Shown here one piece after another: positions 2,445-22,712 of a DNA stretch of 22,712 bases. The notes beneath the pieces were generated by a model. It was not told the origin of the DNA. It made no database searches and was given only the letters and a program-made list of their open reading frames with translations. Origin of the DNA: Plicaturopsis crispa FD-325 SS-3 (lineage: Eukaryota > Basidiomycota > Agaricomycetes > Amylocorticiales > Amylocorticiaceae). The stretch is from the NCBI GenBank assembly GCA_000827205.1, contig KN832580.1, positions 1 to 22,712 on the forward strand. Reading direction: 5' to 3'. Each line of letters begins with the position of its first letter. Position 1 is the first letter of the stretch. The position numbers and the translations under genes are program-made.

Positions 2445-3562
2445 ATGCCTCTCACCAGCATCCGACTAGGGCGTGTGGTGGAGGAGAGCGCTGATGGACG
2501 GCTCCTAGTACAATGGGATGGAGCTATCCAGGATCAGGATACTGATTGGATCCCCGGTAATCCAGTTCTGCTAGCCTCCTGGAGGAAAAAGGTCTCTATT
2601 CCTACATCTCAGTGTCCATTTTAGCTCATTGGACGTCATATATCTTCTCTCCACCAGTCCAGAGAGTCTCCACTGACAGCTAGTGCTGCAATCCGTCCGG
2701 CGGAACGTAGCCCTCGCCGTTCAGCTTCGGCTACGGTAAGATTTCTCGGTTTGGATTTCTTCTACTACGTAGAAGGCTGATCTTTCAATGTAGTCGGAGG
2801 ATGAAGGTGAGGCCACCGATGACGAAGACGATGCGGACGAGGATGAAGACGACGAGGACGACAAGGATGAAGACGACGAGGACGACAAGGATGAAGACGA
2901 CGAGGACGACAAGGAATACCAGGAAGAAGACGATTCCTCAGATAGTGAATACCAGGACGATGACGAAGATGAGGTTATTGCTAGTGCAAAGGGGGGAGGC
3001 CGACACCGACGCAAACAGTCTGTCAAGGACAAAGATGTGTCCAAGAATGGTTCTGTGGCGGAGAACGAGCCCCAGCAGGATCTCCCAAGGCTTGTAGAAA
3101 ACGTATGTGGGTCTTCTTCTTCCTTTTTGCAGTGGCAGCTGACAATTTCTTTCCTACAGATGTCTTTGATGTGCAGCAGCAGCAACACCGAGCGATCTAC
3201 GACTATGACGCCTGGCAGGGATGAAGAGGCTCTGGCTTCGAGCCAGCTTCGCAAATGGTTAGAGGTCAGACTTTTCTCAAGCATATCCCATATCTCGTGT
3301 GCAGTGCTTGCTAACTCTAGCTGTTGCCCAACACAACTGCATACATGCAGTCTCTGACACAGAAGGAGCTCTTTAAGTACACGACCAAGACAAATATCCG
3401 GCGAGCCAATGGTAACAAACCCCGCCAGAAATCCGGTATGCATTTTTCCGATTCATTTTGTTACTATGGCTAACAATAGTCCAACCAGAGGCTGTTGATG
3501 CCATACTACTGGCCCCTACTCTGCCATCGAAGCAGGACATACAGTCTGTGATAGATGGCTAA
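2445..3562 (+). CDS. acidic hypothetical protein, six exons, about 278 residues
   Basis: Proposed exons are 2445-2591, 2658-2735, 2794-3102, 3160-3264, 3321-3435 and 3480-3562. The five introns (66, 58, 57, 56 and 44 nt) keep one frame to a TAA at 3560-3562. The last two introns carry CTAAC branch-site-like strings; the first donor (GTCTCT) is weak. The first 49 residues alternate hydrophobic and polar positions (GRVVEESADGRLLVQWDG), a strand pattern like small SH3/Tudor/chromo-type barrels, but that is a guess. Residues 76-135 are strongly acidic, with DEDDEDDK repeated three times (residues 92-115), followed by a basic patch (RHRRKQ) and a polar tail. Such proteins often bind histones or other basic partners, but no function is shown here. 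The second ATG-proximal frame extends upstream without a stop, yet the ATG at 2445 has the best context (CGCCATGC) and starts the plausible domain. Confidence 0.65.
2842..2913 (+). repeat. 24-bp tandem repeat, three copies, inside the acidic exon
   Basis: Three perfect head-to-tail copies of a 24-bp unit (GATGAAGACGAC plus GAGGACGACAAG) encode DEDDEDDK each time. The copies are identical at the DNA level, so the expansion is recent or maintained. The unit keeps the frame, so copy number could change without breaking the protein. Confidence 0.95.
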
Positions 3563-4744: not shown

Positions 4745-5364
4745 TTGCACGCTCCATATACACCGGGATTGTACACCGGGATTGAACTTGTGCATTATGC
4801 AGGGCGATTGTGTGCCTGCCGTCCGAGACAGATTCCTCAGCCGCAGGGACGCCGATCGGGTTGGTCTACCTCGTGTGGACCAACCCCGCGCTCGCGCATA
4901 ACAGAACCAACGAGCTCTCCGTTTTCTTCGGCCCGCAGTTCCACGGCCGCGGGACTGAGGCGGTGCGGTGGGTGCTGGAGATGGTGTTTATGCGCCTGGG
5001 CCCACCGCGTGTCCCTGAGCACGCACGGCTAGCATGTGCGGCGCGCGTAGGAAAAAGAGTATGTGGACTAGCTGGTGACAGTGTCGAATCAGCGGCTCAC
5101 GACTCGATCGTGACTCGTGGCGCGTTCCGACTTGCTTACCTTGCGGGTTCACGCTCGAGGGGACGAGCAGAAAGGCCGTATTCAAGGAGGGGAGCTTTTA
5201 GGATATACTCCATATCTGTGTGTGTGTGTTTTCACGTCGTTCTTAAGCAATTGTTTTGTGATCGCCTCGCTGACCGTCTACGCAGGGGGATTCTCGAGGA
5301 GGAATGTCTTGGTTTGCGCTACAGGGAGAGGAGGGTTCTGGCGGGAAATCAGAGAGGACGACAT
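4745..5364 (+). pseudogene. GNAT-family N-acetyltransferase relic, copy 1
   Basis: The core exon (from about 4803) reads IGLVYL, LAHNRTNELSVFFGP and RGTEAVRWVLEMVFMRLG, the strand, turn and helix order of a GNAT acetyl-CoA binding core (Acetyltransf_3-like), with the pyrophosphate-loop remnant G-R-G-T. Around 5147-5195 follows GFTLEGTSRKAVFKEGSF, then a stop where the paralogues have Trp-Asp. A last exon (from about 5287) has a remnant of GILEEE but is out of frame. The region matching KRAYEKA at the end of the core exon is garbled, and no exon for the N-terminal RLVYRA segment was found, so the copy is 5'-truncated and frameshifted. It is most similar to the minus-strand copy at 14640-15552, and the S block follows both. 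GNAT proteins move an acetyl group from acetyl-CoA to an amine; this copy cannot be working. Confidence 0.75.
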
Positions 5365-5850
5365 GACATGTTACACGTACAATGTACAATGTGGCGAAAA
5401 CGGTAACAGTGCAAGATGTCGTCCCTCCTTCCACGCGAAATATCTGGTGTACGGCTGAGTGGGTGGACAGAGTGTCGGTACGGTGAAATCGGAGCTTGGC
5501 GGCCATAATTGTGTGGCTTGCGCTATCCAGACGAGTGAGGAATTAGATATGCAGGCTTGCGCGGAGCTGAGTATGACACAGTGTAGAGTGCATGCGGGGC
5601 ATCGGCGTGTGCACGCGGTACAGAACATCGCACCGCGGACTCGGACTTTGAAGTCACTCAGCTGAATGGCATCGCAGTGTCTGTGATACCTGCATGCAAT
5701 AGCGTGTGCGTCAGCCTCTGCCGCATTTGCAATATTGTCGTTCCAGACATGACAAGCATACCTCATTCACGAGTGGTAGGGCATGCAAGACGCATGGATG
5801 ACCTTCAATGACAGGCGGTATCAGATCGATAGTGAAGAGAAAGTCACGAC
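5365..5850 (-). repeat. S block, copy 1 (reverse relative to 11547-12131)
   Basis: This stretch is the reverse complement, with many substitutions, of 11547-12131 and 14301-14640. Shared landmarks include GCATGCGGGGCATCGGCGTG, the CACCGCGGACTCGGACTT string and the GCAAATGCGGCAGA-type string (here reversed near 5725). Near 5795 a short frame reads AWMTFNDRRYQIDSE; the paralogue at 11605 (minus) reads AWRAFNDRRYHIDSE. This resembles a piece of an exon from a common mushroom protein family, but only the fragment is left. No intact gene is seen. Confidence 0.7.
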
Positions 5851-6015
5851 GGCATGGCTAGTGTTCTTCCTTTTCCAGTTCGATTCACGGACGACGGAGC
5901 GTCTAGATAGGGCCGGGGCCTGTATGGATACGAGTGACGTTCAACCTGGTGTGGACTTGCAGCTTGAAGTATGGCGTCGGAACCCCCAGGATACTACTTA
6001 CAGTGAATCTGTGGC
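5851..6015 (-). repeat. R1 block, copy 1, truncated and reversed
   Basis: The sequence matches the inner part of the reversed R1 at 12132-12270 (shared landmarks: GTTCGATTCACGGA and ATGGATACGAGTGACGTT). It stops near 6015, where it is joined directly to the 3' end of the second GNAT relic on the opposite strand. This is a rearrangement breakpoint. Confidence 0.7.
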
Positions 6016-6019
6016 CACA

Positions 6020-6626
6020 TATTATTCGTATCCCAGAACTTGCCCTCCCGAACCAACGCCTTCCGATTCGTGCCCTCCAACACGAATCCCCTGTAGCACC
6101 ATCCATCAGTCCCCCACCCCCTTCAAACCACATTAACACACCAAACGAGACACTCACGCTTTCTCATAAGCCCTCCGCGCTACCGACGTGTTGAGGGGGG
6201 AGAAGTCGATGACGCCGATGGGGGTTCCGGGGAGATGGGGGGAGGAGGGGTGGGGAGGCAGATGACAGCGCTGGGGATGGGAGCAGTGAGGGATGGGGAA
6301 GGGGAGGGGATGGGAGGGGAGGGGACGTACCAGAGAAGCGCGGCAGGCGCGCGTTGGGCCCAGTGCTCCGCCAGCTCTTTCTTGCCCCTTGGACTGTATG
6401 TACCGTTTCCCCGTCAGCTCAGCGCCCCAAAACAAACGAAATAATAGAAGGAAGAAAGAGTGGTAGAGTGGTAAACAACGCACTATGGCGCGCGCACAGA
6501 CGACTTGGTGAGCCTGACCGGATCCTGCATCCACGCGAATACGTGCTCGACGTCCCCGTCCTCCCAAGCGCGGTACACGAGACGCTCGGAGAGGTGCATG
6601 TCTGTTGGGATGTCTGGAGCTGCCAT
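6020..6626 (-). pseudogene. GNAT-family N-acetyltransferase relic, copy 2, core deleted
   Basis: Reading from 6626 leftwards, exon 1 gives MAAPDIPTDMHLSERLVYRA, WEDGDVEHVFAWMQDP and LTKSSVRAP, a typical GNAT N-terminal strand and helix, and it is cleaner than in copy 3. A 45-90 nt intron-like gap and a garbled second exon follow. The third exon gives TPIGVIDFSP and then jumps straight to LNTSVARRAYEKA: compared with copy 3, about 40 residues are missing, including the acetyl-CoA loop. The next intron is conserved in position and is followed by GFVLEGTNRKALVREGKFWDT, ending near 6035. DNA similarity to the upstream region of copy 3 continues to about 6790. The deletion makes it inactive. Confidence 0.75.
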
Positions 6627-7111
6627 GTCTTCTTGCGGGGTGTTCAGTAAAACGGCGTGCGTTCGAGTTTGACGGGTAGCGAGGGAGGGTTATATGGCCA
6701 CGGGGTACCTCCGCAGTGCTACTCGCTTGAGTCACCAAGACCGCTCCGTAGTGATCAGCCTGGGCCTTGTGCATATGGCAAGCAGATTTACGATGTGGGA
6801 CCATATTGTGTTGCAGATACGGGATCCGGAAGGAGGAGAGTGACAGCGCGCGGAGACGAACAGATGATGAATGATCTTATCAGATTACGTCCGCTATATG
6901 GCAGCTGCGCAGTGCGTGTGCCACCCAACCGTAACAACGCAAGCGGCAAGGTACGCAAACCGTTTACACAAGTTAGGCTCATTGACACGCAATTAATTCG
7001 GTCATACAGAGGCTACCGGAGAAATGGCGTGCAGGGGAAATCCCGATAGCCAGCAAAACCGGAGACTTGGAAAACGACAGAGAAGTTATTGCTCAGCTCA
7101 CTTACTCTCCG
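6627..7111. other. upstream remnant of GNAT copy 2, then unassigned DNA
   Basis: The first part (to about 6790) is the reverse complement of the DNA just upstream of GNAT copy 3 (8090-8248), with landmarks such as the CTGCGGAG/GTACCCCGT/TATAACCC series. The remainder, 6790-7111, has no recognised feature. Confidence 0.5.
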
Positions 7112-7120
7112 TTATATAAG
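7112..7120 (+). promoter_or_regulatory. TATA-box-like string
   Basis: TTATATAAG lies 34 nt before the ATG at 7154 that opens the RNase H fragment. The spacing is short for a fungal promoter, since the transcript start would fall almost at the ATG. It may be chance. Confidence 0.3.
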
Positions 7121-7153
7121 CGGTGAATCCGCTACGCCGTTCGAACTCCCGCC

Positions 7154-7488
7154 ATGGAGAAAACTGTACTTGATTATGAAGGACGACTATGCATTGACCC
7201 AAACTCGGCGAAGCTGGAAAAGAAGGATGCAGCAATCGTGCATCGGGAACAGGTGAGTAAAATTCGTCATGACTCTCACCACCTGTTCGTATACTCGGAC
7301 GGTACAATGGTGGAAGATGGTCCATACCGTCCAGTTGGATTTGGAATTGCGGGATACCATAATAGGAGAGAACGTATTACGAGACGAGGCGGTCTCGGTA
7401 CGAAAGCGGAGGTATACGATGCAGAGCTCGCAGGACTAGCCTGGGCTGCGACAGACGCTACTAGTTACGCTCGACTTCATCCTGAAGG
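7154..7488 (+). pseudogene. LINE-type RNase H domain fragment
   Basis: The frame opened at 7154 reads HHLFVYSDGT (Asp at residue 49), GFGIAGYHNR, and GLGTKAEVYDAELAGLAWAA (Glu at residue 91), then YARLHPEG. This is the first two-thirds of a type I RNase H fold with the first catalytic Asp and the Glu. The spacing and the YSDGT/AELAGL wording resemble the RNase H domain that follows the reverse transcriptase in Tad-like fungal LINEs. The part carrying the next Asp (normally in a DN pair after HLHP) is absent, because at about 7488 the frame runs into the R1 block. No reverse transcriptase or endonuclease is present upstream. It is a captured, broken piece. Confidence 0.65.
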
Positions 7489-7990
7489 GGCACATTATGG
7501 TTTTGCGCAGGGTGCTGAACTGCCGGTTGCCGTACACGTACAAGTCTCGTGTCCGACCGTGACGACGCCGATGGAAGCCGCTGTATCTTTCTTCAAGGTG
7601 CTTTATTGCTTTCTTGAACACTCGATGTGTAAACAGCAAGGTTTCTAGAGGTATACAGAGTTGATCGTTGATCGATACTGACCGTAGAACGGAATCCAGA
7701 GGACACGGCGAACTCGCACATGGACGCGAGGTCCATGACGCGAGTTTCCTCTCGCCGTCATGTAGAAAAAGGTGTACGATTATTTTATCTCTTCTTCCCT
7801 GGACTACGAAACTTACTTGTGCACATTCAGCATCAAATAATACAGCATCTGCGCTATGAGCAGTAGCTTCAGCCATGGATTCCGCCGCTGCCGCCGCGAC
7901 GATGAATGATGGCCACAGTTTCACAGTACGCTAGGCTACTTCAAGTCCACGTATCCCGCGGACACTTGTCCGTGAATTGAACTGGTAAAG
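7489..7990 (+). repeat. R1 block, copy 2
   Basis: This is a near-full copy of R1, colinear with 11008-11510. Landmarks are the start CACATTATGGTTTTGCGCAG, the middle ACGCGAGTTTCCTCTCGCCG, and the end TTGTCCGTGAATTGAAC. It has small indels relative to the other copies. The long minus-strand frame inside it (7436-7924) is also open in copy 3, but both are recent duplicates, so openness is weak evidence for a gene. Confidence 0.85.
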
Positions 7991-8248
7991 GAACAATCTG
8001 ACAAGATCATTCGTAGTCTCTTCCACACGGCGCTCGCTCTGGCACTCTCCGAGTCCTCCTTCCTCGTATCTCCAGGCCCACCTTGGAATTCTGCTTGCCT
8101 GCCATATGCACAGAGTCTATAGGCTGCTTACTACGGAGCCGGTCGCTTTGACTCGAGCAGCACTGCGGAGTGACCCCGTTGCCGTATAACCCACCTTACC
8201 CCGCCGCAACATGAACAAGTCGTAGAACCCCTTGCGCGCAACGAAGAG

Positions 8249-9264
8249 ATGGCAGCCCCGAACATCCCAGCGGACATGCACCGCTCCGAACGGCTCGTGT
8301 ACCGCGCATGGGAAGACGCGGACGTCGAGCATGTAATTCGCGTGGATGTAGGACCCGGTGACGCTCACAAAGTCGTCTTTGCGCGCGCCCTAGTGCGTTT
8401 TTACCACTTTACCACTCTACCACTTTGCTCCTTCCTCCATTCTTTCGTGCGTGGCGCTGGGCTGACGGGAAACGAAACATACAGTCCAAGGAGCAAGAAG
8501 GAACTGGCAGAACACTGGGCAGAACGCGCGCCCGCGGCGCTACTCTGGTAAGTCCATCCGTCTCCTCAACCTCGAGTACTAGCCAGAGTGTCCAATGCCC
8601 CGCGTCAGCGCCGTCATCTGCCTCCCCTCCGCGTCAGACCCCCTCCCCACTGGTACGCGCACGGGAATCACAGGCTCGCCCACTGGCATCGCAGGCCCGC
8701 CTATAGCAATCGCCGGCACACCAATCGGCGTCATCGACTTCTCCCCTCCCCTCGCACACAATCGCACAACGACGATGTCCGTCCTTATCTCCCCCTCCCA
8801 CCAGCGGCTTGGGTACGGCACAGAGGCGGTAGGGTGGATCCTCGAGCAGGCGCTTATGAGGCTGGGGATGCACCTGAGCGCGTCGCCGTTGAATGTCGGG
8901 GCGCGGAGGGCTTATGAGAAAGCGTGAGTCGTCTCGTTTGGTGTTAATGTGGTATTGTGGGGCTGATAGAGTGGTGTGGTGGTGGTGTGGTGTGGTGTTA
9001 CAGGGGATTCGTGTTGGAGGGTACGAATAGGAAGGCGCTGTTTCGGGAGGGCAAGTTTTTGGGATACGATTAACATGTGTGTCTTCGCTCTCCCGTTCCT
9101 ATGTCGGCAGAGGAGCTGAGAACCATGAGCTGACTTTCGCGGACACGGCATACAGGGGAATATTGGAGGAGGACTGGTTTGCGCTGCAGGAGCGGAAGAA
9201 GGCTGCGGCTGCGGCTGGTGCGTCGCAGGAAGTGGCAGCTGGTGCTAGTGCGTCGCAGGCATGA
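8249..9264 (+). pseudogene. GNAT-family N-acetyltransferase, copy 3, nearly complete
   Basis: Five exons can be traced: 8249-8392, 8485-8547, 8609-8923, 9004-9076 and 9156-9264. They give MAAPNIPADMHRSERLVYRA, a middle helix (ELAEHWAE), AVICLPSA, an indel-rich Gly/Pro/Thr insert, GVIDFSPPLAHNR, then the acetyl-CoA loop QRLGYGTEAVGWILEQALMR, ARRAYEKA, GFVLEGTNRKALFREGKF and GILEEDWFALQERKK with an Ala-rich tail. The order fits a full GNAT enzyme of roughly 240 residues. Compared with copy 2 there is one extra A near 8332, a TAG in the restored frame at 8346-8349, and one extra T in the run at 9055-9060. These break the frame, so it is called a pseudogene, although the two insertions could be sequence errors. 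The insert (IGVI/ITG/IAG repeats, about 8650-8720) is not in the other copies. Confidence 0.75.
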
Positions 9265-9671
9265 TTAGCACGCGACCCACGCGTTATATCGACGTGCACT
9301 GTTATCGATATCCCTGGACCCTTTCGCACACCAGGCCAATCGGATCTACTCATATCTTGAAGATATACGTGCGTACGTCGTGGCGAGTGATATGTCCGTC
9401 GTTGCTTGGCTCTATGCTCTATCTCTATAGCAAAATAGATACGAGAGTAGTGGTGGTTAAACACAGCCCGTCCAAGCTTCAAGGTATCTTGATTTTGCAA
9501 GGGGAAATGTATATATGACAACGAGCAACGACGTACGTACAGCAGCACAAATCCAAGGAAAACATTGAGGTGAGACGAAATGTCCGCGAGAGGCGTACGA
9601 AAGCAAACGCGACAACTAAGAGCAATACGACAGCAGGATGTTATAGAGCAAGGTCGAAACGGACTGCATGC
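9265..9671. other. convergent intergenic stretch between GNAT copy 3 and H
   Basis: No gene is seen. From about 9478 onwards the DNA belongs to the left arm of the inverted duplication and is matched by 13667-13870. The conserved GTATATATGACAACGAGCAA/CGACGTACGTACAGCAGCAC stretch lies about 150 nt beyond the stop of H and of its decayed copy, so it is probably 3' flanking DNA carried along with the gene. Confidence 0.6.
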
Positions 9672-10934
9672 TCACGCTACTCTGGCCGCCTCCCTCCTTG
9701 CCAGCTCGGCCGCGATGCGCGCCTCCATCTGTGCCTCCAGTCGAGCCTGCATTTCCGCCATTGCTCTCGCCTGCTGTGCCTGCATTTCCGCCATTGCGCT
9801 CGCCGCCTGTTCCCGAGCCGCTCTATCCCTCTCGTCTGCCCTCCTGGCCTGTTCCTCCATCGCTTTCGCCAGCTGCGCCGCCTGTTCCCGCACCTCTCTT
9901 GCTTCCTGCTCAGCCGCTCTGGTCCGCTCCTCAGCGGCTCTATCTCGCTCGTCTGCCCTCCTAGCCTGTTCCTCGGCCCGTTCATCAGCGGCTCTGGCCC
10001 GCTCATCAGCGGCTCTAGTAGCCGCAGCGATTTCCGCAGCAAGTTCCTGTTCACGTGCATTGATCCGCTACAATGCGGAAATTCAGTCACACAAAGATGG
10101 GAACGGAAATGGCAGGCTTACTTGCACCGCTGCAGGCCACGTCCTCTCCTCAAACAACTTAACAAGGGCCAGAACCACCGAATCGGGCGGCTGCCCGATG
10201 TTAATGTTGGTAAACGCAACGCGGCCCATACGCCGCGGCTTCGGGTTAGGCACGAACTCCTTCGACGTATCGCGCACGACGCGCGTGAACAGCTCGTACA
10301 GCAGACTCCCGAAAAAGTAACATTGAGTCTTCTGCAGGTGATACTGGGGGAACTCGTCGTGCACCAAATTCGCCATCTCCACGAGCTTCATGCACGACCT
10401 CTCCGCGAAGCTCATGTCGACCTCGAACGTGCGCAGCCGCTTAGCGTTGCGCCCGAGGAGCAGCGCCTCGGGCGTCGCCGCGAGCGTCACCTTGTCGTAC
10501 GCGGGCACGGCGCTCGAGCTGGAGATGGAGGAGTTGTGCGAGGCGGTCTGCAGGGAGTGCGTGGAGTAGGAGGAGAGCGTGCGCAGGTCGCTGTCGGACA
10601 TGGAGCGCGGCTGCGTGGGCCGGGTGCAGCGCTCGAGGATGAGCGCGCCTTTGGCGGAGCGCCCGTCGGGCGCCTCGTAACACACGAGCGCGAGCACGAA
10701 CTCGTGTGTGGCGGGCCGGCTCCGTTGTTTGTACTGCTTGAGATGGGTGATTTGGTACGTGCTGTGGTTCTTGTAGGAGAGTAGGTATTTGCTGAGTACG
10801 TCCAGAGGCCATTCCTTGGGCTCTTTTTCGAAGAGGCGGATATCGTGTTGGGGTGTAGATTCCGTCATGGCGAGGCGCAGGCGGTGGAGGAGGAGACGGG
10901 CACGGAGCCAGACTTCAGAGAGGAGGAAGAGCAT
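9672..10934 (-). CDS. H: conserved-type hypothetical protein with C-terminal coiled coil, apparently intact
   Basis: Two exons, 10934-10122 and 10067-9672, are joined in phase by a 54-nt intron (donor GTAAGC, acceptor TTGTAG), giving 402 residues. A second ATG at 10868 (MTESTPQHD) would give 380; the decayed copy has ATA there, so the start is open. The N-terminal part is globular-looking, with KEWPLDVLSKYLLSY, STYQITHLKQYKQRS, ALILERC, a Ser/Thr-rich stretch (about 105-140), then EALLLGRNAKRLRTFEVDMS, QCYFFGSLLYELFTRVVRD and PDSVVLALVKLFEERTWPA. Residues 272-402 form one long Ala/Arg/Glu coiled coil in which EEQARRADERDRAA occurs twice (303-316, 342-355). The family looks like hypothetical proteins frequent in polypore-type fungi; I know no function for it. 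It is the left half of an inverted duplication whose other copy is broken. Confidence 0.75.
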
Positions 10935-11546
10935 GGTTTACTGTCGATATAGATATAGTGCAGATATGAGCCTGCTGGCAGCGTGAAGAGTCGTGGGCTT
11001 GTCGTGGGCACATTATGGTTTTGCGCAGGGTGCTGAACTGCCAGTTGCCGTACACGCACGAGCCTCATGTTTGACCGTAACGGCTCCGAATTGGAAGCCG
11101 CGGTATCTTTCTTGGTGCTTTCTTGCTTTCTTGAGACACTTGAGCGTTCGACGTGTAAACCGCATGGTTTCGAGAGGTATACAGAGATGCTCGATAGTGA
11201 CCGTACCAGAACAGAATCCAGATAATCCAGAGGACACGGCGAACTCGCACTTCGACGCCATGACGCGAGTTTCTTCTCGCCGTCAAGAAAAAGGTGAACG
11301 ACTATTTTATATCTTCTTCTCTGGACTACGCAACTTACTTGTGTACAACCAGTATCAAATAATACAGCATTTGCGCTATGAGTAGTGGCTTTAGCCATGG
11401 ATTCCGGCGCTGCCGTCGCGATGATCAATGATTGTCCCAGTCTCACAGTACGCCTACTTCGAGTCCACAAACCCCGCGGACGCTTGTCCGTGAATTGAAC
11501 GGGTAAAGCAACCGTACTGGCCGCCGGCCATGCCACCGTGACTTTC
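10935..11546 (+). repeat. R1 block, copy 3, upstream of H
   Basis: R1 (11008-11546) is colinear with copy 2 at 7489-7990. The first 70 nt are the immediate upstream region of H and are shared with H'. The promoter of H should lie here on the minus strand; only a weak TATATC string at about 10946 was seen. A 246-residue minus-strand frame (10865-11605) spans this copy, overlapping the start of H, but has no recognisable domain. Confidence 0.8.
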
Positions 11547-12131
11547 TCAAGTTCACTATCGATATGATACCGCCTGTCATTGAAGGCCCTCCACGCGTCG
11601 TGCATGCCTTACAACCCATGCATGAACGAGGTATGCTTGTTTTGTCTGGAACGACGATCCTGCAAATGCGGCAGACGCTGACGCACACGCTATGGCATGC
11701 AGGTAACAGACGCTGCGGATCGCGATTGCATCCTGCTAGTAGACTTCCGAGTCCGAGTCCGTGGTGCGATGTTCTGTATCGTCTTGTGCACGCGCCGATG
11801 CCCCGCATGCACTCTACGCTGTGTCATTTTTTTCATCCTCAGCGCCGCGCAAGCCTGAAGCCTGCGTATTAAAATCCTCATGTCGTCTTGATAGGCGCAA
11901 GCCAGCCGATTACGGTCGCCACGCTCCGATCCCACCGCACCGACACTCTGTCCGCTCACTCAGTCGTACACCGGATATTTCGCGTGGAGGGAATGCAACA
12001 TTTTTTCACCGTTGCCGTTTTCGCTATATCGTACGCGCAAGCCATTCCTCCTCGAGAATTCCCCTGCGCAGACGGTCAGCGATGCGACCACAGAACAGCT
12101 ACTTGCGAAGGATGGAACATCACGCACACAG
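11547..12131 (+). repeat. S block, copy 2, forming the loop of the inverted duplication
   Basis: The loop matches 14301-14760 in the same direction and 5365-5850 in reverse. Near its left end, the minus strand reads AWRAFNDRRYHIDSE (from 11605), as in copy 1. The right end retains CTCCTCGAGAATTCCCC, which in the other units belongs to the final GNAT exon (GILEEE read on the minus strand). So the unit continued into a GNAT gene before it was cut at about 12131 and joined to a reversed R1. Confidence 0.75.
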
Positions 12132-12708
12132 CCACGGTGGCGTGGCCAGTGACTGTGCGGTTTCTTTACCACTGGAAGTTCGATTCACGGATGGATACGA
12201 GTGACGTTTGGCCTGAAGTGGGAGTCCGAGTCGGAACTCTAGGATACTGTAGTGAGACTGTGGCCGTTATATTCATCGACTGGGCGGCGGCGGAATCCAC
12301 CGCTGAAGCCACTGCTCATATATCATAGCGTAAATGCTGTAATACAAGTGTGCACCAGTAAGTTGAATATATAGTCCAGAGAGAAGACATACAATTGTTG
12401 TGCACACATTTTTCTACAAGACGGCGAGAGGAAACCCGCGTCGTGACCTGTCGTCTGACTTCCCCGCGTCGAAGTACCAGTTCGCCGTTTCTGCTCTACT
12501 GTCACTATCAATCAACGTTCAACTCTGTATACCTCTCGAAACCATGCTGTCTACACTTCGAGTGTTCAAGTGTCTCAAGAAAGCAAAAAAGCACCAAGAA
12601 AGATACAGCGGCTTCCATCGGAGTCGTCACGGTCGAACCATGAGGCTCACGACTCTTCACGCTGCCAGCAGGCTCAAATCTGTACCACATCTATAGCGAC
12701 CGTAGACC
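12132..12708 (-). repeat. R1 block, copy 4, reversed, upstream of H'
   Basis: This is the reverse complement of 10935-11546. At about 12652 a stretch of about 65 nt that includes the CACATTATGG end of R1 is missing, so the shared GTCGTG and GAGCCTCATG strings lie next to each other. Confidence 0.8.
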
Positions 12709-13667
12709 ATGCTCGTCCTCCTCTCTGAAGCCTGGCTCTGTGCCCGTCTCCTCCTCCACCGCCTGCGCCTCGCCATAACGGAAACTACACCCCATCACAC
12801 TATGCGCTTCTTCAACGAAGTGCCCAAGGAATGGCCCCTGGACGCCCTCACCGAGCGCCTGCTGTTCCGTAAAGAACACAGCCAATAACAAGTCACCCAG
12901 CTCGAGCAGTACAAACAAAAGAGCCGGACCGCCACGCACGAGTTCGTGCTTGCGCGCATCCGCTACGTGTACGACGGGCGCCCCGCCAAAGGCGCACTCA
13001 TCCTCGAGCGCTGCACCCGGCCCACGCAGCCGCGCGAGTCCATGTCCGACAGCGACCTGCGCACCCTCTCCTCCCACTCCACGCGCTCCGTCCAAACCGC
13101 CTTGCACAACTCCTCTGTCTCCAGCTCGAGCGCGGTGCCGCAACGCTGAGCGGCTGCGCAGGTTCAAGGTCAACCTGCGCTTCGCGGGGGGACTCGTGCA
13201 TGAAGCTCGTGGAGATAGCGAGTCTGGTGCACGAGGAGTTCCCCCAGTATCAGCTGCAGAAGCTGAAGAATATGGGCCGGGTTGCGTTTACCAACTCGGT
13301 CATCGGGCAGCCGCCCGATTTGGTGGTTCTGGCCCTTGTTGTGTTGTTCGAGGACAAGATGTGGCCTGCCGCGGAGAAAGTGAGACTGCCATTTGCTCCC
13401 TTCTTTGTGTATCTGAATATTTGCATTGTAGCGGATCGTTGCATGGGGCGACGTGAAGAGGCGCGGGCATGGGCATTATCGGCAGCAAGGCATGAATAGG
13501 AACTTTCTGCGGCTACTAGAGCTGCTGAGGAGCGGGCCAGGGCAGCTGAGGAGCGTTCAGAGCAGCAGGCGAGAGCAATGGAGGAGATGGAGATGCAAGC
13601 TCGGCTGGCACACATGGAGGCACGCATGGCAAGCAGGGGAGGACCAGCGCTCGTGACCACAGCGTGA
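12709..13667 (+). pseudogene. H': decayed inverted copy of H
   Basis: The copy starts in the same way as H (LLSEAWLCARLLLHRLRLA) and keeps KEWPLDALTERLLF, then meets an in-frame TAA at 12886-12888 where H has a Tyr codon neighbourhood (STYQ). The frame is open again over ATHEFVLARIRYVYDGRPAKGALILERCTRP. About 45 nt coding for the PAYDKVTL region are missing near 13140, and about 100 nt coding for QCYFFGSLLYELFTRVV are missing near 13265, the first with a frame change. The intron before the coiled coil is recognisable (GTGAGACT..TTGTAG, about 13379-13431). The coiled coil is shortened and interrupted. These lesions make a working full-length product impossible. Confidence 0.85.
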
Positions 13668-13870
13668 GCGTCAAACAGTCAAACATACATGTTTCAACCT
13701 TGCTTATATCATCCTGCTGTCGCATTGCTTTCAGTTTCCAGTTGTCGCCTTTGCTTTTGTTTGCCTCTCGCGCGGACATTTCGTCTCTCAATGCTGTTTG
13801 GGATTTGTGCTGCTGTACGTACGTCGTTGCTCGTTGTCATATATCCCCCCCCTCCCTCGCAAAATCACTA

Positions 13871-14006
13871 TACCTGCCTGCAGCTCGGGACCCTCTGAAC
13901 CAGCGGGGTTCGAGAAAGTGGCTTTCAAAGGACGACAAAGGACAACATACGTTGGTCGAGCAGGTGCATTTAAATTTTAAATTTAAGTAAAAGAGCCTAG
14001 GTCGAC
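13871..14006. other. unique spacer with AT palindrome
   Basis: This is a short spacer between the end of the right arm and the next R1 piece. It holds an AT-only inverted repeat (TTTAAATTTTAAATTTAA) at about 13969-13986, then AAGAGCCTAGG, and R1 similarity begins at ACGCGAGTTTCC. Confidence 0.6.
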
Positions 14007-14300
14007 GACGCGAGTTTCCTCTCGCCGTCACGTAGAAAAAGGTGAACGACAATCTTATATCTTCTCCTTTGAGCTACGCAACTTACTCGTGCATACTTGC
14101 ATTACAGTTTGAGCAGCGGCTTCAGTGATTGATCGTTCCGGCGCCGCAGCGTTGATGGATAAGATGGCTACAGTCTCACTGTACTAGTATCCTGGCGTTC
14201 CGACACCCACATCAGGTCGAACGTCGCTCGTATTTAGACGCGCCGTCTCCGTGACTCGAACTGGTAGTGAAGGAAGAGCACTGGCCACGCCACCGTGACT
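14007..14300 (+). repeat. R1 block, copy 5, 5'-truncated
   Basis: The sequence begins with the mid-R1 landmark ACGCGAGTTTCCTCTCGCCG and continues, with substitutions and small indels, to GCCACGCCACCGTGACT. The left half of R1 is absent. Confidence 0.75.
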
Positions 14301-14640
14301 TTCTCTTCACTATCGATCTGAACGACGAACGATCTTGCAAATGCGGCAGAGGCTGACGCACACGCTATGGCATGCAGGTAACAGACCGTGACGCTCTGCG
14401 GTTGTATCCAGCTAGCTATAATAGACTTCCAAGTCCGAGTCCGTGGTGCGATGTTCTGTATCGTCTTGTGCACACGCTGACGCCCCGCACTCTACTATCG
14501 TCCTCAGCGCCGCGCAAGCCTACATATCCAAATCTTCACGTCGCCTTAATAGGCGCAAGCCACCCAATTATGGTTGCCACATTCCGATTCCACCGTACCG
14601 ACACCGTCTCTGTCCACTCACTCAGCCGTCTTCTCCTCTG
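14301..14640 (+). repeat. S block, copy 3
   Basis: Colinear with 11547-12060: shared landmarks GCAAATGCGGCAGA, GGCTGACGCACACGCTATGG, GTCCGAGTCCGTGGTGCGAT and GTACCGACAC. In this unit S runs unbroken into a GNAT copy, which gives the original order. Confidence 0.8.
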
Positions 14641-15552
14641 ATTTCTCACGAGAACCCTTCTCTCCCTACAGCGCAAATCACTCCTCCTCGAGAATCCCCC
14701 CTGCACAGACGGTTAGCGACGCGACCGCGAAACAACTGCGTACGGACGACACGACGGGAAAACACACAAACATATGGATTATATCCCAAAAGCGCCCCTC
14801 CCTGAACACGGCCTTCCTGCTCGTCCCCTCCAGCGTGAACCCGCTATGGAGGCAATAAATCAAATCAAAACGCGTCACGAGTCACGATCGAGTCATGAGC
14901 CGCTGATTCGACACGATCACCAGCCAGTCCACGTACGCTTTCTCATGCGCCCGCCACGCCGCCGCATGGCAGCCGTGTGTGCTCAGGAACACGCGGTGCA
15001 GGCCCAGGCGCATGAACGCCATCCCCAGCGCCCACCGCACGGCCTGGTCCCGGTCCAGTACCCGCGCTCCTGGAACCGTGGGCCGAAGAATACGGACAGC
15101 TCGGTGCCCCTGTTGTGCGCGAGCGCGAGGTACATAGACCAGTCCGATCGGCGGCCCTGCGGATGAGGGATCCGCCTCGGACGGCACGGGCAGGCACACA
15201 ATCGCACTGATGCACATGTTCAATCCTGGTGTACTTATGTGTACCGTGTACCGTGCGAGCTGGACTGACCGGAGGAGTGCTGCAGAAAGCCAAGCGTTCC
15301 ACGGGCCCGACATGTCGTGCTTGCCTTGGGGTCTGCCAGGCGTGTTTGTGTTTCCGCCCGTCAGATGCGGTGCGCACAACAGCTGTGTGGACAGTGGACG
15401 TACTTGGGCGCCCGCCGCGAGATGCTGGCAGTGAACTGCGGGTCCTGCATCCACGACAAGATGTGGTCCATGTCGGGCTCTTCGTACGCTCGGTAAACGA
15501 GCCGCGTAGTGCGGTATTGCATCAGCAAACCTACATCTGTCTGATTTGTCAT
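14640..15552 (-). pseudogene. GNAT-family N-acetyltransferase relic, copy 4
   Basis: Reading leftwards from the ATG at 15552, exon 1 gives MTNQTDVGLLMQYRTTRLVY, RAYEEPDMDHILSWMQDPQF and a good GTACGT donor at about 15405. The core exon (from about 15209) gives AIVCLPVPSEADPSSAGPPI, then shifts frame within GLVY, continues as ALAHNRGTELSVFFGPRFQERGY, shifts again, and returns as AVRWALGMAFMRLGLHRV and AAAWRAHEKA. After the next intron, GFTLEGTSRKAVFREGRFWD is intact; the last exon has GILEEE followed by TGA where copy 3 has Trp. So it is full-length but carries at least two frameshifts and a nonsense codon. It pairs with copy 1 as a lineage distinct from copies 2 and 3. Confidence 0.8.
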
Positions 15553-16677
15553 GAGCGTCTTGGGCTAGTACTGAGCAGATGCATTGTCACTATAGGTACG
15601 CACCTCCTGGTTTTCAATCTATCTATCTTCCTGAGGGCAACGGCGATAGTACGAAGTCCGACCCACTGGACGTCGGAAATCGTTGCGGCGCCTGCAGCCC
15701 TCCTTCTCTTCTTGCTTGAATGACCGTTCGGGCCCACCGCTAATGTGCGTTCAGTTCCCCACAGCTGCCAACTTGCCACTCCGGCATGCCTTCACAAATG
15801 GAGTCCCGTGTCGCTCCTCGCTCAGCCGATACAACACGCCGTTACGGTACTCGTACGCGTAGGTAGATGGCCAGCCACCGCGTCGCGTAGACCCGTGCAA
15901 CTGTTCAATGCATTGTGTATCCACGCGACCTCGTTTACGCCGCCGCCACGCGTTCCTTGGCGGCAAATCTAATCAAAGGGCTCGAGCTCAATTCTGCCGC
16001 ACGTTAGAGTGGTTCCCGCAGTAAGTCGTAATGCCTTTCGTTTCCAATTACCCTGTGTGCTAACATCCCATCTAGCATGTCTCCGTAGGGTCTACAAAGT
16101 ACGGGATACTAGGCTTGGGTCACCCTCACGCGTCGTACTTAGCTGACAGCGCGAGCGTTATCGTCGAGCGCATCACTGCTGCTGCCTTAAGTACAGCACT
16201 GCACATACAATGGACGGACAGTTTACCTTGCTACACAGAAATGAACCTGTTACGAATTTTATGACATATATGCAATGCTCTCCATAGCACTATCCACCCG
16301 TCCCTCAACTATTGTGCATATATACTTCACTATCCAAGCTATGGTTCACATGATAACGTGGGGCATACTCTGTACAGCTAGTATGGTGGCTACGGATCTA
16401 CTGTAGCCTTGCAGGTGCCACGGCTGGCAGGGGCCAGGTAGTAGGCACTGGCACCATATTGTACAGAAAATGAGTGCATTCGGCAATTCCTGAGGCCTGA
16501 GGAGGCGTTGTGCCCTAGGCGGGCGTCAGCCTTCAGGCGATTATGTTATCCAAGTCGGCGCGTTTCAGGAAAAGTTGCCTTTTGCACTTGTTCTGACAAA
16601 ATCTTCTGAACATTCACAGTCAGCCTCTATCTCATACTGTTGGACGAATATCTATTCGACACTGCCTAGTCGACTCT
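15553..16677. other. intergenic stretch upstream of the recombinase-like gene
   Basis: No supported gene. A minus-strand frame at 15751-15966 contains GGWPSTYAYEYRNGVLYRLS and ERHGTPFVKACRSG, which reads more like protein than random translation and could be a leftover exon, but I cannot place it. Around 16490-16543 a GC-rich imperfect hairpin is seen (GCCTGAGGAGG facing CCTTCAGGC). No terminal inverted repeats or target-site duplications were recognised. Confidence 0.45.
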
Positions 16678-16732
16678 CCAATCAAACATGAAGTTAAACC
16701 TCTCACTCACTCGGACGTTGGACATCCGCTGA
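16678..16732 (+). promoter_or_regulatory. CCAAT box and short upstream ORF ahead of the recombinase-like gene
   Basis: CCAAT lies at 16678-16682, 86 nt before the main ATG. An ATG at 16688 opens a 14-codon frame (MKLNLSLTRTLDIR) ending in TGA at 16730-16732. If transcription starts before 16688, this small frame would be met first by ribosomes and would reduce translation of the main frame. The transcript start is not known. Confidence 0.3.
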
Positions 16733-16767
16733 ATCTTCTTGTTGTATCTAGTAACTCTACGATCATA

Positions 16768-19700
16768 ATGGATACAATCCGCAGCATGTCAAATATGCTA
16801 GATCCTGGAACAGAGATTTCCGTGTTCCTGAAGGATCAGGAAGAGGACCCAGTGGTGTATGATACTTCTGGCTTCCTAGCGAACGCTACTCTAATATAAC
16901 ATCCCTTTCTTTGCAGATGGACGAATAAGCAGAGTTCCTTGTCCAAGAAAAACATAGCGATGATATTTGACATCTTGGCAGGTATGTTAGAGCTGTCTGT
17001 CAAGTAAGTCCTTTGCTGGTGGCTAACCCCTGGTGATCGGGATCATGCTCAGAAGGCGGACAAGATCAAGATGGTGACTCAAGCCGGATGTCTGACGATG
17101 ACGAAGACGACGAAGACAATGACGGCGGAAACAATTTCTCCCATATCCTAGAAAAGTATGAAGAGGAGATAGAAAAGACGATAGAAGGAGAGAATGTCGA
17201 TGAGACACAAACCTTCGACAATACTATGCTTTCAAGCTCGGACCTCAATACGCTTTCGGTAGATGGCCCCGGTTCAGGAGTCGGGATGATCGTTAAATCG
17301 ATGAAAGATCTCAGTGAGCCCTCCTTTTGTAGTGCTCGGAATACGCCGTTCATTTAAGGATTTTAGCTCTGGATCTTGACCCTCGGCCCACACGCACTAC
17401 CGCTATCAAGCAGGACCTGGATACTGACTTCCAAGGCCAAGGTACGCTGATCCGCGGTGCAGCTAGCAGCAGGTCTCAAGAACTCTCTAGTGTATACAGA
17501 TATGCTGGCGGACATCATTACAGAAAAAGACATAATCAAGTGAGCTCTCTTGGGATTTCTATATTTATTTGGGGGGAGGCAGTTATATTGCCTAGCCCAG
17601 TCCTTACTTCCACTTTTATGATCTCCCCATTTCTCTTGAATGTGTTCCCACCTTTCCATGCTGACCGCTATCGGCACTCGCAGTCATCGACATCGTCATC
17701 CTATTTTGCCAGAGGACGGAGAATATCTTCTTCAGACCAATGTTTTGGCCAGATATAGCTTATATTATAATACCAGGTGTGTGTCTGTGATATTAACATC
17801 CTATTGCTGAACGAACCACTGATTCCATCCATCTTATCTATGGCGGATTCACTCACAACTTACTAGATATCATATCATCATATGTGGCTTATGCCATTCA
17901 GGGCTGTCCATAACCGGTGTTCAACACCACCGCGAATTGGCTGCATTTTCAGTCGAGGAATGGACGGGAACGGCGAACGTGTCTCGTTCTATCCCACATC
18001 CGGGAGAAAAACTTCCAAAAGGGGCCCAAGATTCCATAGTCAAGAGTATAACAACTCTTGGGTATCCTACTCCTCTTGACTACAACGTTCTCGAGGTTCA
18101 AGCTGACAGGCTCAGTACCAAAATTTATCAGCAAGGCCCAATCAAAGGCCTCGGTGTCATGGAGGGTTGGGCCTGCCTGTTGTGCCCCGACTGGCGTCTT
18201 GCTGCCGCGTCGCCGATCAAATCCTCCCTTAGAAAGCACTTTCCAAAGGAGCATCCCGGCCAATACAAGCCTGGCAAGTGGGACGTTATGAAGCGGACAC
18301 AGATCCAAACACTCTTGCGCAGTAACCCCGCTTTGAAGAAGTGGAGGCCATGTGCGGTCCAGGTCCAAGACAGCACTGCGGTATCCAGACCATCTATGTC
18401 GATCCCAGCAGCCACCCCATCTATTCCTCCTCCACTTCCACTTCCATTGCCACGCACCACCGTCGATCTTCGTGCACTGAAGCAGAAGATGGTCAGCGGA
18501 CTAGAGCAGCCATCACGCAAGCTGGATAACAGACTCGCGAAGCCGTATGTGCGCCAGTTAGGTATCGACACATTCTTCCGAAAATACACCCTACAAGACC
18601 TGCACCTCATCAGCAACCTGGCTCGTATCCCCAATCTCCGACAGAAAGAAGGCCTTGAAGCACTGGATTCACTGCCTTTCCGCCTCAATCGCTTATCTCA
18701 CGTCCTGCGGAAGACCTTTTATGACGACTGCAAATTTGTCAAGGTTTTGGACGACAGTTTTCTGTTCACGATTTCTCATTGTGACCCGTGAGTTCTTTGT
18801 CCTTGAAGGGCTCTCTGTTTCACTAATTATTTGTGTCTGCCAATAGCCAGCGCAGACACAAACCCACAAAGCCTTTCAAGCCGTCTGCGTTGAAGCGCAC
18901 TTGGAGCGTTTATGCCCTCGTCGAACTGAAGCTGCTTTGGGCAAATTTACAGTACTTTTGTTCGACCGCCCTCATCGAGGACGATCATCAAAGGCTCATA
19001 AGATACAGTGATGCTCAGGAGGCCGCGCTTTCAAATCTGGTCACTCAACTGAAGGCCACCGATTTCTCTGAGAAGGACTGCATCGAGGCACTGTACGGTG
19101 CTCTCGATGCACTCTACTTCCCTGACTTAAACGACGAGATTTATGTTATGAAGAACAGCCATGCAGTGGCAGTCTTCCTGGCCATCTCTTACCTTGCGGA
19201 CGAAGGCAAGGACTACGTGCCGGTCGATCATGTACCCCCTTTCCTAGCGAAGGTTCAATTCTCCATTCGATTGCGTGCGTGCCACCATCTTGCCCAGAAG
19301 TTATCTCCCCGCGTCCTCGAGGAGCTCCGGCAGCAGGTCCCTGACTCAGACGAGGACGACGAGGACGACGAGGACGACGAGGACGACGAAGGCAGAGCCG
19401 CGATGCAGGACCAGAAGGCCAAGGCCAAGAGCGGAAGAAGTGGGACCAAGGACCGTATGAATAACCATGGTGCTGATATCCTCAAAACTGCAGGAGAGCC
19501 ATGGAGAAGGTGCGTGCCCTGTCAAACCTGTTTTATCAAGTAGCTGACGGTATGTCTTCCGACTGACCAGGCGAGTGGATCGATTCTGCGAGGAATATCT
19601 GCAAGAGAGAGGGTATTCTCCCTTTTCAATTGTCCGTGATCACATTCATGTCGCAACGATGGAGGTGAAAAACACGCCGAGACCTCCCACGGCACGATGG

Positions 19701-20906
19701 CTGTCCCGCGACAGTCTCCGAGTCTTCCAACCCCGTCACCGCTCTCATCTTGTCGAATCCGAATCCGGGATACCGATTCCGACGGTGACATATTATGACA
19801 TAGACGTCGAACATCATTTCCGTTCCATCCAAGATTCACTCAGCGACGTGGAACAATTCTTGCATGAAAGGATCCTTTTAGGTCTATCCCTCGACCGCGA
19901 TCTCATGGAGCCAGACTTCACCACCATGAGCGATCAGGGTGACCAGACCACACACGGGTTCGGGGCCATCACATCGTCTGACCCATTACTCGACAACCCT
20001 GACAGTGCAAGACTGTTCAATGCTTTTCTTGAGCATAAGGCCTTCTCAATGGAAACCTCGTTTGACCAGATCTCCGGCCAATCGGGAGACCTGATTGCAG
20101 ACAAAGCGCAGGTCTTGAACTGGCTAAGCGATATTCACATATTGACATCCAAGGTTTTCGTGTTGTCGCACACTTCCCAGGGATTACCCGGCCGTGGAAC
20201 AGAGGAAAGCCTGTACCAGACTATCAACACACCAAGTGGCCCCCGAAACCTCTACATTAATCAAGAACTCGGGACGTTGGAATGGCATTCCAGCTACCAC
20301 AAAAACGCCGAGCAAAGGGGTCATCACAAGTACATCGTGCGGGCTCTGCCGTATCGCATCGCCCGCCTTCTCTACATCCTCCTCCGTCTCATCCGACCTA
20401 TAGAGCTCGCCTTTGTCCTGAAATATCGCAATCATACCGAAAAGCAGAAGATCGCTACTCTGGCTGCTTACAGCCAGAGGGTATGGGCTACCTCCGGAAA
20501 GGCGTGGACCTCGGACGATATGTCGGGGTACCTTGAAGCCTGGTTCAAGGCAACAGCAAATGTTTCGGGCCTAGGTATCCGTCCCTACAGACATATGGCC
20601 GTTGCTCTACAGCGGAAACGACTGCCATACTATAGCCGCACTTCCGATGCTGCAGCCACGGCGTTGGCTGAGGCAGCTGACTTGATGGCTGGACATACCA
20701 CTGCGACAGCAGAGCACGACTATGCGCGTCAGGGCTATGAATATGTACCGGCGAGTCTCAAGGAACAGTATGTGCAGGTGTCCAGAGACTGGCACAAGAT
20801 GATTGGGTTGACGACAGAGCAACCGAAAGCTACACCATCGCCTTCGGCAAAGATATCTGTGAAGGGGAAGGGGAAGGGGAAGGGGAAGGGGAAAAGTTCG
20901 GCTTAG
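16768..20906 (+). CDS. OrsD-type zinc-finger / tyrosine-recombinase-like protein, about 1180 residues
   Basis: Nine exons (16768-16856, 16917-16981, 17053-17313, 17367-17441, 17500-17539, 17684-17776, 17867-18787, 18847-19509, 19571-20906) keep one frame. Residues 65-75 are acidic. Residues 184-340 look like an OrsD (DUF3505, PF12013) region: C214-x2-C217 with His 228/229, then C311-x2-C314 with His 332 and 337, a paired C2H2-like finger. A second acidic run (DEDDEDDEDDEDDE) sits near residue 680. The C-terminal third has the tyrosine recombinase set in order: Arg945 (PGRGTEE), Lys980 (YHKN), Arg1076 (RPYRH), His1111 (AGHTT) and Tyr1120 (HDYAR). Such enzymes cut and rejoin DNA through a 3'-phosphotyrosine link. 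The protein ends in a (GK)n basic tail. In fungi this combination is often joined to a RecQ-like helicase; none is seen here. The 144-nt intron and exon 5 (40 nt) are the least certain joins. Confidence 0.82.
20860..20894 (+). repeat. GGGGAA/AAGGGG hexamer run coding for the GK tail
   Basis: About five copies of the hexamer AAGGGG lie just before the stop and encode Lys-Gly repeats. The run is a simple-sequence tract that can change in length without a frameshift. A basic tail could help DNA contact, but this is inference. Confidence 0.85.
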
Positions 20907-22712
20907 GCGACGGGATTGGCATTGGAAATATATTCGAGGAGGGAGGGAAGGAGTTTTAAGCAGCCTAGCCGTATTTGAAATGTGTATATTGCTCTGTAGG
21001 TCTTGAGGACAGACCTGAGCGCTGGCCTAATTGTGAATGCTTGCGGGTCGATTGTATCGAATGAAAAGAGCTACATGCGCAAGGGAATAAAATTTGCAGG
21101 CAGCTGCAGTCTATTTATGATATTTGCAATGAAGTCGAAAAGATACAAATCGCGATGCGCGTAGATCCGCTTGAGTTAAGGTGTCTTTAGGCTGATCCCA
21201 TCGATGGTCCAACAAGAGGAAGGGGGCAGGCAATGAATCAAGCGCCTTGCTTGCACCAAAGGCGACCAGGGCAGAGCCAGGCCACGATTGGATTCCGGAT
21301 GACAACGTGCGTGCTGTCCATACATATGCAGGCCTGGTGAAGGGAGGAGCGACGGGACCGTGCGTCTGTGCATATTCAGGGAGCTCGCTGCGGTTCCCGC
21401 GCCAAGCGAGTCCATGATCTTTAGCGCAGATTGCGTCAGTTCGGGTGAGGGAAGAGTGCAAGATCGAACGTACTGCGAGAGATGATTGTATTCTTATGTC
21501 TTATGTCTGGCTGTCGGCACAAGAGAATATTTATCAAAGCTTACTTCCTCGTGAACCGTGAAGGTGTGTGGACTGAGTGCTGAGTTAGAGCATTGACACA
21601 TGAGTACAAGAATGTGAACATGCAGACGAAAAGAGGAACAGAATGCGCACACCGTTGGGATACAGAGCGGGCGCTGGCGAGCCGCATCATGACTGACGGA
21701 ACGACCTAGCATAAAACAAGGAAGTCTAGCATGGTGCCGATGGTATTAGACAAGAAAGACATACATATGAGTATAACAGGCCAGGATTGCTTACTGCGGC
21801 GTGACAGATAGATAGGATGCGGGTCAGGGGATACCAGGGACTAGCGGGACGTAACATGACGTGGGCTATTGCCCATCGCACTACAGGAACTTGAGATATC
21901 CGAGAGATTAACAGCGCAGCAGCAGCATGAGATACGACGAACAGACGGGACGCTCAAAACTTTGAGTCAGTGAAGACGCCGTGATAAAAAATCAGCCCTG
22001 CGTACCACTCGTCACCGGCGAGGACGCTAACCTAGCCAAAGCACTGAGATAGCGACCCTGGTCAGCATGGCTTCATGGAAATGGAATGCGACAAGCGGAG
22101 GCCAAGAGACTTACCCGAGCGCAAGGACAAAGCGGCCACGCGGCCTTCATCGCGAGCGCGGGTTGGTAAAAGGCCCGAGGTCCTGCGGATCGCACTCGCA
22201 GACGCGACTATATAAGTCCTGCCGCAGACCGATTTCGACACCGTTGGTCTCTGGTCCGGGAGTGTGTAGAGTAAAACATACCTCGCATTATAGGATCTGG
22301 ATGAGAGATGAACGCACGCATCATGCCATCGGCTCGGTCGAGGATAGCTAGGGTTTCGGCATGTTAGGAGATGAAACTGCTGGCATACATTGTATATTGT
22401 ATACGCACTTGCATGGCACTCGTCCTGCTCCTGGATAGCGGATAGAAAAACAAACAAGTACGGCGTCTTGCGATGTCTGGCGGTCTGGCGACTGGTGGAT
22501 CTAAGTAAGTTGTATTATTTCGTGAATAATTTTGAGTGAGCGGTAAATTTGCATCTGCATTTGGAGTCAGAAAAAAGGATTCGATAAGTGTGCTCACAGC
22601 TGGCCAGGTAGGTGAGGAGGAAAGAGGTAGAAATCCGACAGCGAGCGGCAAACTCTCCAAGTTCGCGGCCCGAAGTTTGACTTGATCTACATGGCGCTAG
22701 AGCCCAAACTTC
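20907..22712. other. 3' flank and intergenic stretch, no supported gene
   Basis: Frames here (for example 21111-21461 minus and 22062-22457 minus) have no recognised domain and lack convincing splice partners. A TATATAAG string lies at 22209-22216, but no coherent frame follows it. At the very end GAAGTTTG (22672-22679) and CAAACTTC (22705-22712) form a short inverted repeat. Confidence 0.5.
21086..21091 (+). terminator. AATAAA polyadenylation signal candidate
   Basis: AATAAA lies 180 nt after the stop of the recombinase-like gene, in an AT-rich stretch. The position suits a fungal 3' UTR end. Fungal signals are loose, so it is only a candidate. Confidence 0.4.

Follow-up and report, generated by a model that had tools for sequence, protein, structure and literature searches.

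The window, by which we mean the whole 22,712-base stretch of Plicaturopsis crispa DNA analysed here, contains a real gene whose product joins an N-terminal part taken as OrsD to a C-terminal domain that resembles the catalytic part of tyrosine recombinases, enzymes which cut and rejoin DNA. Together with three diverged relatives in the same genome, this gene probably represents a real and little described family of OrsD proteins which, judging from their residues, may act like tyrosine recombinases. On balance we favour a joint reading in which OrsD and the tyrosine recombinase-like C-terminal domain mark a lineage of Crypton-like elements, or a derivative of such a lineage, in which a helicase is optional. 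A full-text search, with subscription papers and preprints mostly outside its reach, returned no paper that treats OrsD and tyrosine recombinases jointly, and in the literature found OrsD has not previously been joined to this class of enzymes.

A nine-exon gene model with a borderline N-terminal OrsD match

The window forms the beginning of a contig of 200,731 bases (C27), and the genome searched amounts to 33.2 Mb on 49 contigs. According to our model the gene is made of nine exons (16768-16856, 16917-16981, 17053-17313, 17367-17441, 17491-17539, 17684-17776, 17867-18787, 18847-19509 and 19571-20906), all of its introns run from GT to AG, and the spliced 3552 nt encode 1183 residues in a frame free of stops, which bears out the clean frame over nine exons described in the earlier note. 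A splice script returned eight exons at two of its three settings, the disagreement being confined to 17442-17752, and the small exons of this interval, the weak part of the nine-exon model, are putative. The join 17776/17867, on which the first half of the OrsD match hangs, is common to all three settings. Furthermore, since R947, K983, R1079, H1114 and Y1123 all lie within the last exon, doubts about splicing leave these five residues untouched. An acidic tract stands between OrsD and the recombinase-like domain, as it likewise does in the relatives on contigs C17 and C39, and the Lys-Gly tail reported before is indeed present at the end of the protein. Nothing in Rfam matched in the window. 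A KDZ-associated domain, TTAGGG arrays and the presence of spliceosomal introns give the genome a fungal appearance.

The assignment of the N-terminal part to OrsD (PF12013, of which DUF3505 is the older name according to a passage of PMC4469406) is based on a profile score, on two C-x2-C...H motifs and on PF12013 matches in the three relatives. The spliced N-terminal part gives a match in two stretches with 26.5 bits (E 9.4e-6), just under the cut-off of 26.6, and the second half of the region alone gives 22.3 bits; by this score the OrsD call of the earlier note is borderline. The paired C-x2-C motifs which that note had listed are present as well and start, in the nine-exon numbering, at residues 217 and 314, the former numbers being 2-3 lower. 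Among the relatives, the C17 and C35 copies score above the cut-off (38.4 and 34.6 bits) and the C39 copy below it (20.4 bits). When the genome was scanned with PF12013, the exons being read apart, C35 and C17 only were listed and the window locus was not.

Table 1. Features of the gene and of the surrounding block (residue numbers follow the nine-exon model)
Feature	Position in window	Strand	Basis or remark
Stretch bounded by a repeat on either side; maximal extent of any possible element	16425..22004		
Gene: OrsD, acidic tract, recombinase-like domain and Lys-Gly tail; 1183 aa	16768..20906	+	frame, splice sites
OrsD (PF12013) zinc-finger region, interrupted by intron 17777-17866	17684..18254	+	profile match
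First C-x2-C...H-H motif: C217, C220, H231, H232	17883..17930	+	sequence
Second C-x2-C...H-x4-H motif: C314, C317, H335, H340	18174..18254	+	sequence
Acidic Asp/Glu tract between OrsD and recombinase-like domain	19346..19393	+	
Candidate tyrosine recombinase catalytic domain	20013..20810	+	conserved in four genomic copies
Candidate catalytic Arg I, R947 (GLPGRGTEE)	20193..20195	+	invariant 4/4
Candidate catalytic Lys, K983 (SYHKN)	20301..20303	+	invariant 4/4
Candidate Arg II and next His, R1079-H1080 (RPYRH)	20589..20594	+	invariant 4/4
Gly-His of third box, H1114 (AGHTT)	20691..20696	+	invariant 4/4
Candidate nucleophile Tyr, Y1123, nine residues past H1114	20721..20723	+	invariant 4/4
Lys-Gly repeat tail	20857..20903	+	none seen in relatives

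The recombinase-like domain and its four copies

Three relatives of the domain were found elsewhere in the genome, on C17 (48229-48972), C39 (28646-29473) and C35 (48852-49289), and such copy counts are lower bounds. Using the whole window protein as query, tblastn ranked C39 first (E 3e-16, residues 739-1124), followed by C17 (2e-11) and C35 (7e-6). Genome searches with the C39 or the C35 member each led to the same four places (C27, C17, C39 and C35), and that with the window member to C27, C17 and C39. The copies have diverged widely, C17 and C39 sharing 42% identity in the domain and the window copy 20-25% with the others.

The four-copy alignment has 241 ungapped columns, of which 23 are invariant, and all five candidate catalytic residues are among the latter. 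For five residues chosen before the relatives were known, the chance that all should prove invariant is about 5e-6. The claim that R, K, R, H and Y stand in recombinase-like contexts is thereby strengthened, their earlier residue numbers being 2-3 lower than those of the nine-exon model. What is kept in the four copies can be written as R-x2-[E/D], K, R-H, G-H and a Tyr at His+9; the positions just ahead of the third-box His (Gly) and just past Arg II (His) are thus invariant too. A second invariant Arg, R964, lies between Arg I and the Lys and is a possible alternative Arg I. When the domains were shuffled, a signature composed for this purpose appeared 24 times per 200,000 for the window copy, 142 for C17, 10 for C39 and 31 for C35, counts that are descriptive since the signature was composed after the sequences had been seen.

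The copies were compared with known recombinases, namely the PF00589 matches of seven bacterial genomes together with lambda Int and Cre, which gave 53 domains and, after removal of those at least 80% identical to a kept one, 43. Left out of this set were 160 phage loci (the best 80 of 98 and the best 80 of 295), nearly all of which share at least 98% identity with Cre or lambda Int, the four exceptions sharing 65-80%. Within the set, His and Tyr are nine residues apart in 30 of the 43, an acidic residue (E or D) occupies the third position after Arg I in 39, a His comes directly after Arg II in 28 and Gly precedes the third-box His in 34. All four of these features are present in each of the four copies, and the 132 residues from Arg I to Arg II in the window copy fall within the range of 87-140 seen in the known enzymes.

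Three features depart from the known enzymes, one of them being the second invariant Arg (R964) mentioned above. The box II His, which stands three residues before Arg II in 40 of the 43 known recombinases, is replaced by Arg in the window and C35 copies and by Ser in C17 and C39, and the catalytic set can no longer be called complete, as it was in the earlier note. A His (or Lys) at this place is a classical feature of the class, and its absence is the reason why we do not file the domain as a tyrosine recombinase member. Moreover, Arg II and the third-box His are separated by 31-39 residues in the four copies versus 20-26 in the 43 known recombinases.

Profile comparisons give a mixed picture. 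In hhalign the alignment of the four-copy profile to the set of 43 obtains a score of 23.6 (P 0.0097, probability 4.3%) and brings R-H and G-H..Y into register, the reversed profile scoring 10.7; that score was reached by none of 300 and by one of 1500 column shuffles, i.e. one of 1800 overall, and this single shuffle scored 34.5. The signal depends on C35, since the score falls to 14.0 when this copy is removed and stays at 25.4-26.6 when any other member is. When C17 is the member left out, the best local match covers 18 columns and lies ahead of box I. It is also to this stretch ahead of box I that Arg I and its neighbours (GLPKRLTEEAL in C39) are aligned, out of register, when the alignment is forced over the full length. 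Taken separately, the N-terminal half was equalled by 7 of 200 shuffles and the C-terminal half by 13 of 200. With a PSSM built on the three boxes, four known recombinases score 49-76 bits versus 1.8-7.4 for the four copies, shuffles did as well 297, 133, 131 and 841 times per 3000 for the window, C17, C39 and C35 copies, respectively, and all boxes were at their expected places in C39 only. The missing box II His and the displaced Arg I of the full-length alignment have lowered our confidence in the recombinase reading.

Library searches were of little help. A Pfam scan of the domain in the four members returned no match, PF00589 and PF11917 included, so that the recombinase profile search suggested at the outset did not favour the recombinase assignment. 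PHROGs gave two matches, each to a single member (E 0.24 and 0.27), and the PDB sequences, searched with the last exon as well as two profiles, yielded chance or low-complexity matches only. In viral contigs, 3 pattern matches were obtained with the single window protein and 88 with the C17 and C39 alignment, none of them confirmed, and none was confirmed either among the 170 pattern matches of this alignment in bacterial and archaeal genomes.

A domain of another fold that accompanies OrsD, with a conserved Arg, Lys, His and Tyr that recall the recombinase motif, would account for this lack of recognition by the family and structure sequence libraries, as it would for the loss of the box II His, the low PSSM scores, the Arg I found out of register and the longer path from Arg II to His. 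We nevertheless consider such a fold unlikely, in view of how the five residues are ordered, spaced and kept invariant, of the Gly, His and acidic positions that accompany them and of the rarity of equally good shuffles in hhalign. A tyrosine recombinase-like working of the domain would accordingly be judged good on the five residues and weak on profiles.

The helicase copy, the flanking DNA and mobility

The C35 copy places the domain in a wider context. Indeed, OrsD, the recombinase-like domain, DEAD (E 3.9e-13) and Helicase_C (E 6.7e-9) follow one another there in successive frames on one strand, which run off the contig end and probably make up one gene. Since C35 has the same domain with the same residues, the recombinase-like part is found with a helicase as well as without one. 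DEAD and Helicase_C were found in one of the nine frames of the relatives that were scanned, namely that of C35, and a search of the genome with this helicase gave one other match at E <=0.001, a weak one on C7.

In the window, no helicase was found among the 8 frames scanned, and the C35 helicase has no match on C27, where the readable DNA extends 1.8 kb past the stop of the gene and the positions from 22713 to at least 35000 read N. Within readable DNA, the absence of a downstream helicase, which had been noticed from the outset, therefore stands. The same was observed near C17 and C39, both of which adjoin stretches reading N.

The gene could for that reason be seen as the remnant of an OrsD-helicase gene of the telomere-linked type that has lost its helicase end and is turning into a pseudogene. 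C35 does combine OrsD, the domain and a helicase, and UTASb units of Ustilago maydis, as a part of PMC10532341 describes them, consist of the core, the OrsD domain or both. However, the frame of 1183 residues is unbroken and ends in a stop, and C17 and C39, for all the masked DNA beyond them, are also free of a helicase where they can be read, which makes this explanation improbable. Because neither of these two copies shows a helicase in readable DNA, the genes without one seem to form a separate lineage.

Repeats flank the gene on both sides. Pieces of the left one, between 15702 and 16424, recur on C7 and C8, and the right one begins at about 22004 and has a copy on C28 at 93%. The left-repeat copies on C7 and C8 extend 21 bases beyond that of the window and then also diverge from each other, so that the left boundary is the end of a repeat rather than a clean insertion site. 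The flanking repeats were considered as an empty site and set aside, their left and right copies not being continuous in the stretches fetched. No exact repeat of more than 10 bases is shared by 15500-16767 and 20907-22712, and flank repeats of 4-6 bp are, without an empty site, indistinguishable from chance. Overall, neither element ends, nor terminal repeats of more than 10 bases, nor an empty site, nor cargo were found around the gene. DNA queries with parts of the block, neither of which took in 17901-18999, detected no copy elsewhere apart from pieces of 35-50 bases of the acidic tract. An old or domesticated member would explain these findings no less well than an active element would.

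Alternatively, the gene may have been domesticated by the host from such an element and no longer move, with the domain kept for DNA binding or remodelling, whether catalytic or not; to this alternative we give some weight, while holding it rather doubtful. The single-copy state of the queried DNA, the many introns and the intact frame differ from what a young multicopy element would show, box II lacks its His, and the domestication of Crypton recombinases has precedents (PMC3212892). Conversely, the four copies have all retained both Arg, the Lys, the third-box His and the Tyr; in animal genes derived from Cryptons, by contrast, most of the tetrad is absent from the DUF3504 domain (PMC3212892).

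Related systems and the significance of the family

CryptonF elements are among the known systems nearest to this gene. As with CryptonF, the window gene encodes a fungal protein in which two Arg and a Tyr match those of tyrosine recombinases, and no terminal inverted repeats were found. CryptonF proteins combine the recombinase with GCR1_C in a passage of PMC3212892; by contrast, Pfam detected no GCR1_C in the last exon of the window gene, OrsD stands ahead of the recombinase-like part, and the His of the R-H-R-Y tetrad, taken here as the box II His, is missing in the four copies.

The captains of Starships (DUF3435, PF11917) are another reference. They resemble the window protein in being fungal proteins of the tyrosine recombinase type, and Starships are described from Pezizomycotina, both points coming from a part of PMC12134995; they have also been reported in the basidiomycete Tremella fuciformis (PMC13066641, in part). 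PF11917 differs in having no match to the domain, and the genome-wide search with it was without a match, but its positive controls were silent as well.

Bacterial and phage recombinases (PF00589) share with the four copies Arg I, the Lys, Arg II, the third-box His and the Tyr, in the same order and with the same His-Tyr spacing, and differ from them by the box II His and by the shorter distance from Arg II to the third-box His.

Telomere-linked helicases form the last group. The telomere-associated elements of Colletotrichum higginsianum associate, as C35 does, OrsD/DUF3505 with a helicase (a passage of PMC5576322). In U. maydis, another part of PMC10532341 places helicase-like ORFs in both UTASa and UTASb, and the subtelomeric RecQ helicases of Agaricus bisporus are described in PMC7473861 as having no domain besides the helicase core. 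Unlike the genes of C. higginsianum and the UTAS of U. maydis, the window gene has no helicase in readable DNA. It lies 17-21 kb from the end of C27, where no TTAGGG array is seen, and the window as a whole contains no telomere repeat array; C35, being at a contig end, is subtelomeric only as a possibility. None of the passages compared names a recombinase domain in telomere-linked OrsD or helicase genes.

The fold, catalysis, DNA binding and mobility that we infer can be put into one scheme. The OrsD part, with its paired zinc fingers, would bind DNA, and the C-terminal domain would cut and rejoin it through the Tyr, by way of a 3'-phosphotyrosine link, the two Arg, the Lys and the third-box His assisting the Tyr in catalysis. 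OrsD and the domain occur as a pair in four diverged copies, followed within readable DNA by a DEAD-type helicase in C35 only, and the helicase would be an optional module of a Crypton-like mobile element lineage.

A broader and more tentative proposal is that OrsD genes and OrsD-bearing RecQ-like helicases form one mobile class with a divergent tyrosine recombinase, in which OrsD would target, the recombinase would insert and the helicase would be optional. RecQ-like helicases have been reported at the chromosome ends of many fungi, where PMC5576322 and PMC7473861 do not settle what they do. The presence of the domain in the helicase form would recast OrsD-bearing chromosome-end helicases as recombinase elements, and a recombinase-like domain in the OrsD-helicase family, together with a helicase-free branch, would provide a concrete and testable mechanism of spreading. 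If the proposal is true, the spread of helicases over chromosome ends would reflect active integration and not only end-to-end recombination.

Repeats and duplications around the gene

Repeats having copies elsewhere in the genome border the OrsD/recombinase-like gene on both sides, the left one recurring in pieces on contigs C7 and C8 and the right one on C28 at 93% identity. Upstream of the gene, direct and inverted duplications are clustered, mostly 80–97% alike, together with an inverted repeat pair of 44 bases with perfect complementarity and a spacing of 4.2 kb.

Coordinates of the features in the window and in L006 and L008, the stretches around the C17 and C39 relatives (own coordinates)
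Feature	Stretch	Coordinates
Asp/Glu-repeat-rich frame	Window	2794-3357
Second GNAT frame	Window	4786-5403
Duplication cluster	Window	5000-15700
Direct duplication (example)	Window	7764-7931 / 11286-11453
GNAT frame	Window	8583-8924
Inverted repeat pair	Window	9511-9554 / 13801-13844
Inverted duplication (example)	Window	10676-10998 / 12645-12967
Left flank repeat	Window	15702-16424
Right flank repeat	Window	22004-22712
Frame with CxC1 cluster	L006	527-1885
Apparent gene continuation	L008	4914-5740

Other reading frames in the window

The duplication cluster contains a GNAT acetyltransferase frame (PF00583, 33.1 bits), and a second such frame gives a weaker match. For the 187-aa frame rich in Asp/Glu repeats, the family scan returned no family above its cut-off.

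Surroundings and 3' end of two relatives

The C17 relative has, some 4.3 kb away from its OrsD frame, a neighbouring frame that matches the KDZ transposase cysteine cluster CxC1 (29.8 bits, above cut-off); the CxC2 score of this neighbouring frame falls slightly under that profile's own cut-off. Read by eye, the C39 gene appears to continue past its Thr-Pro repeat tail via small exons and to terminate in C-x2-C..H..C.
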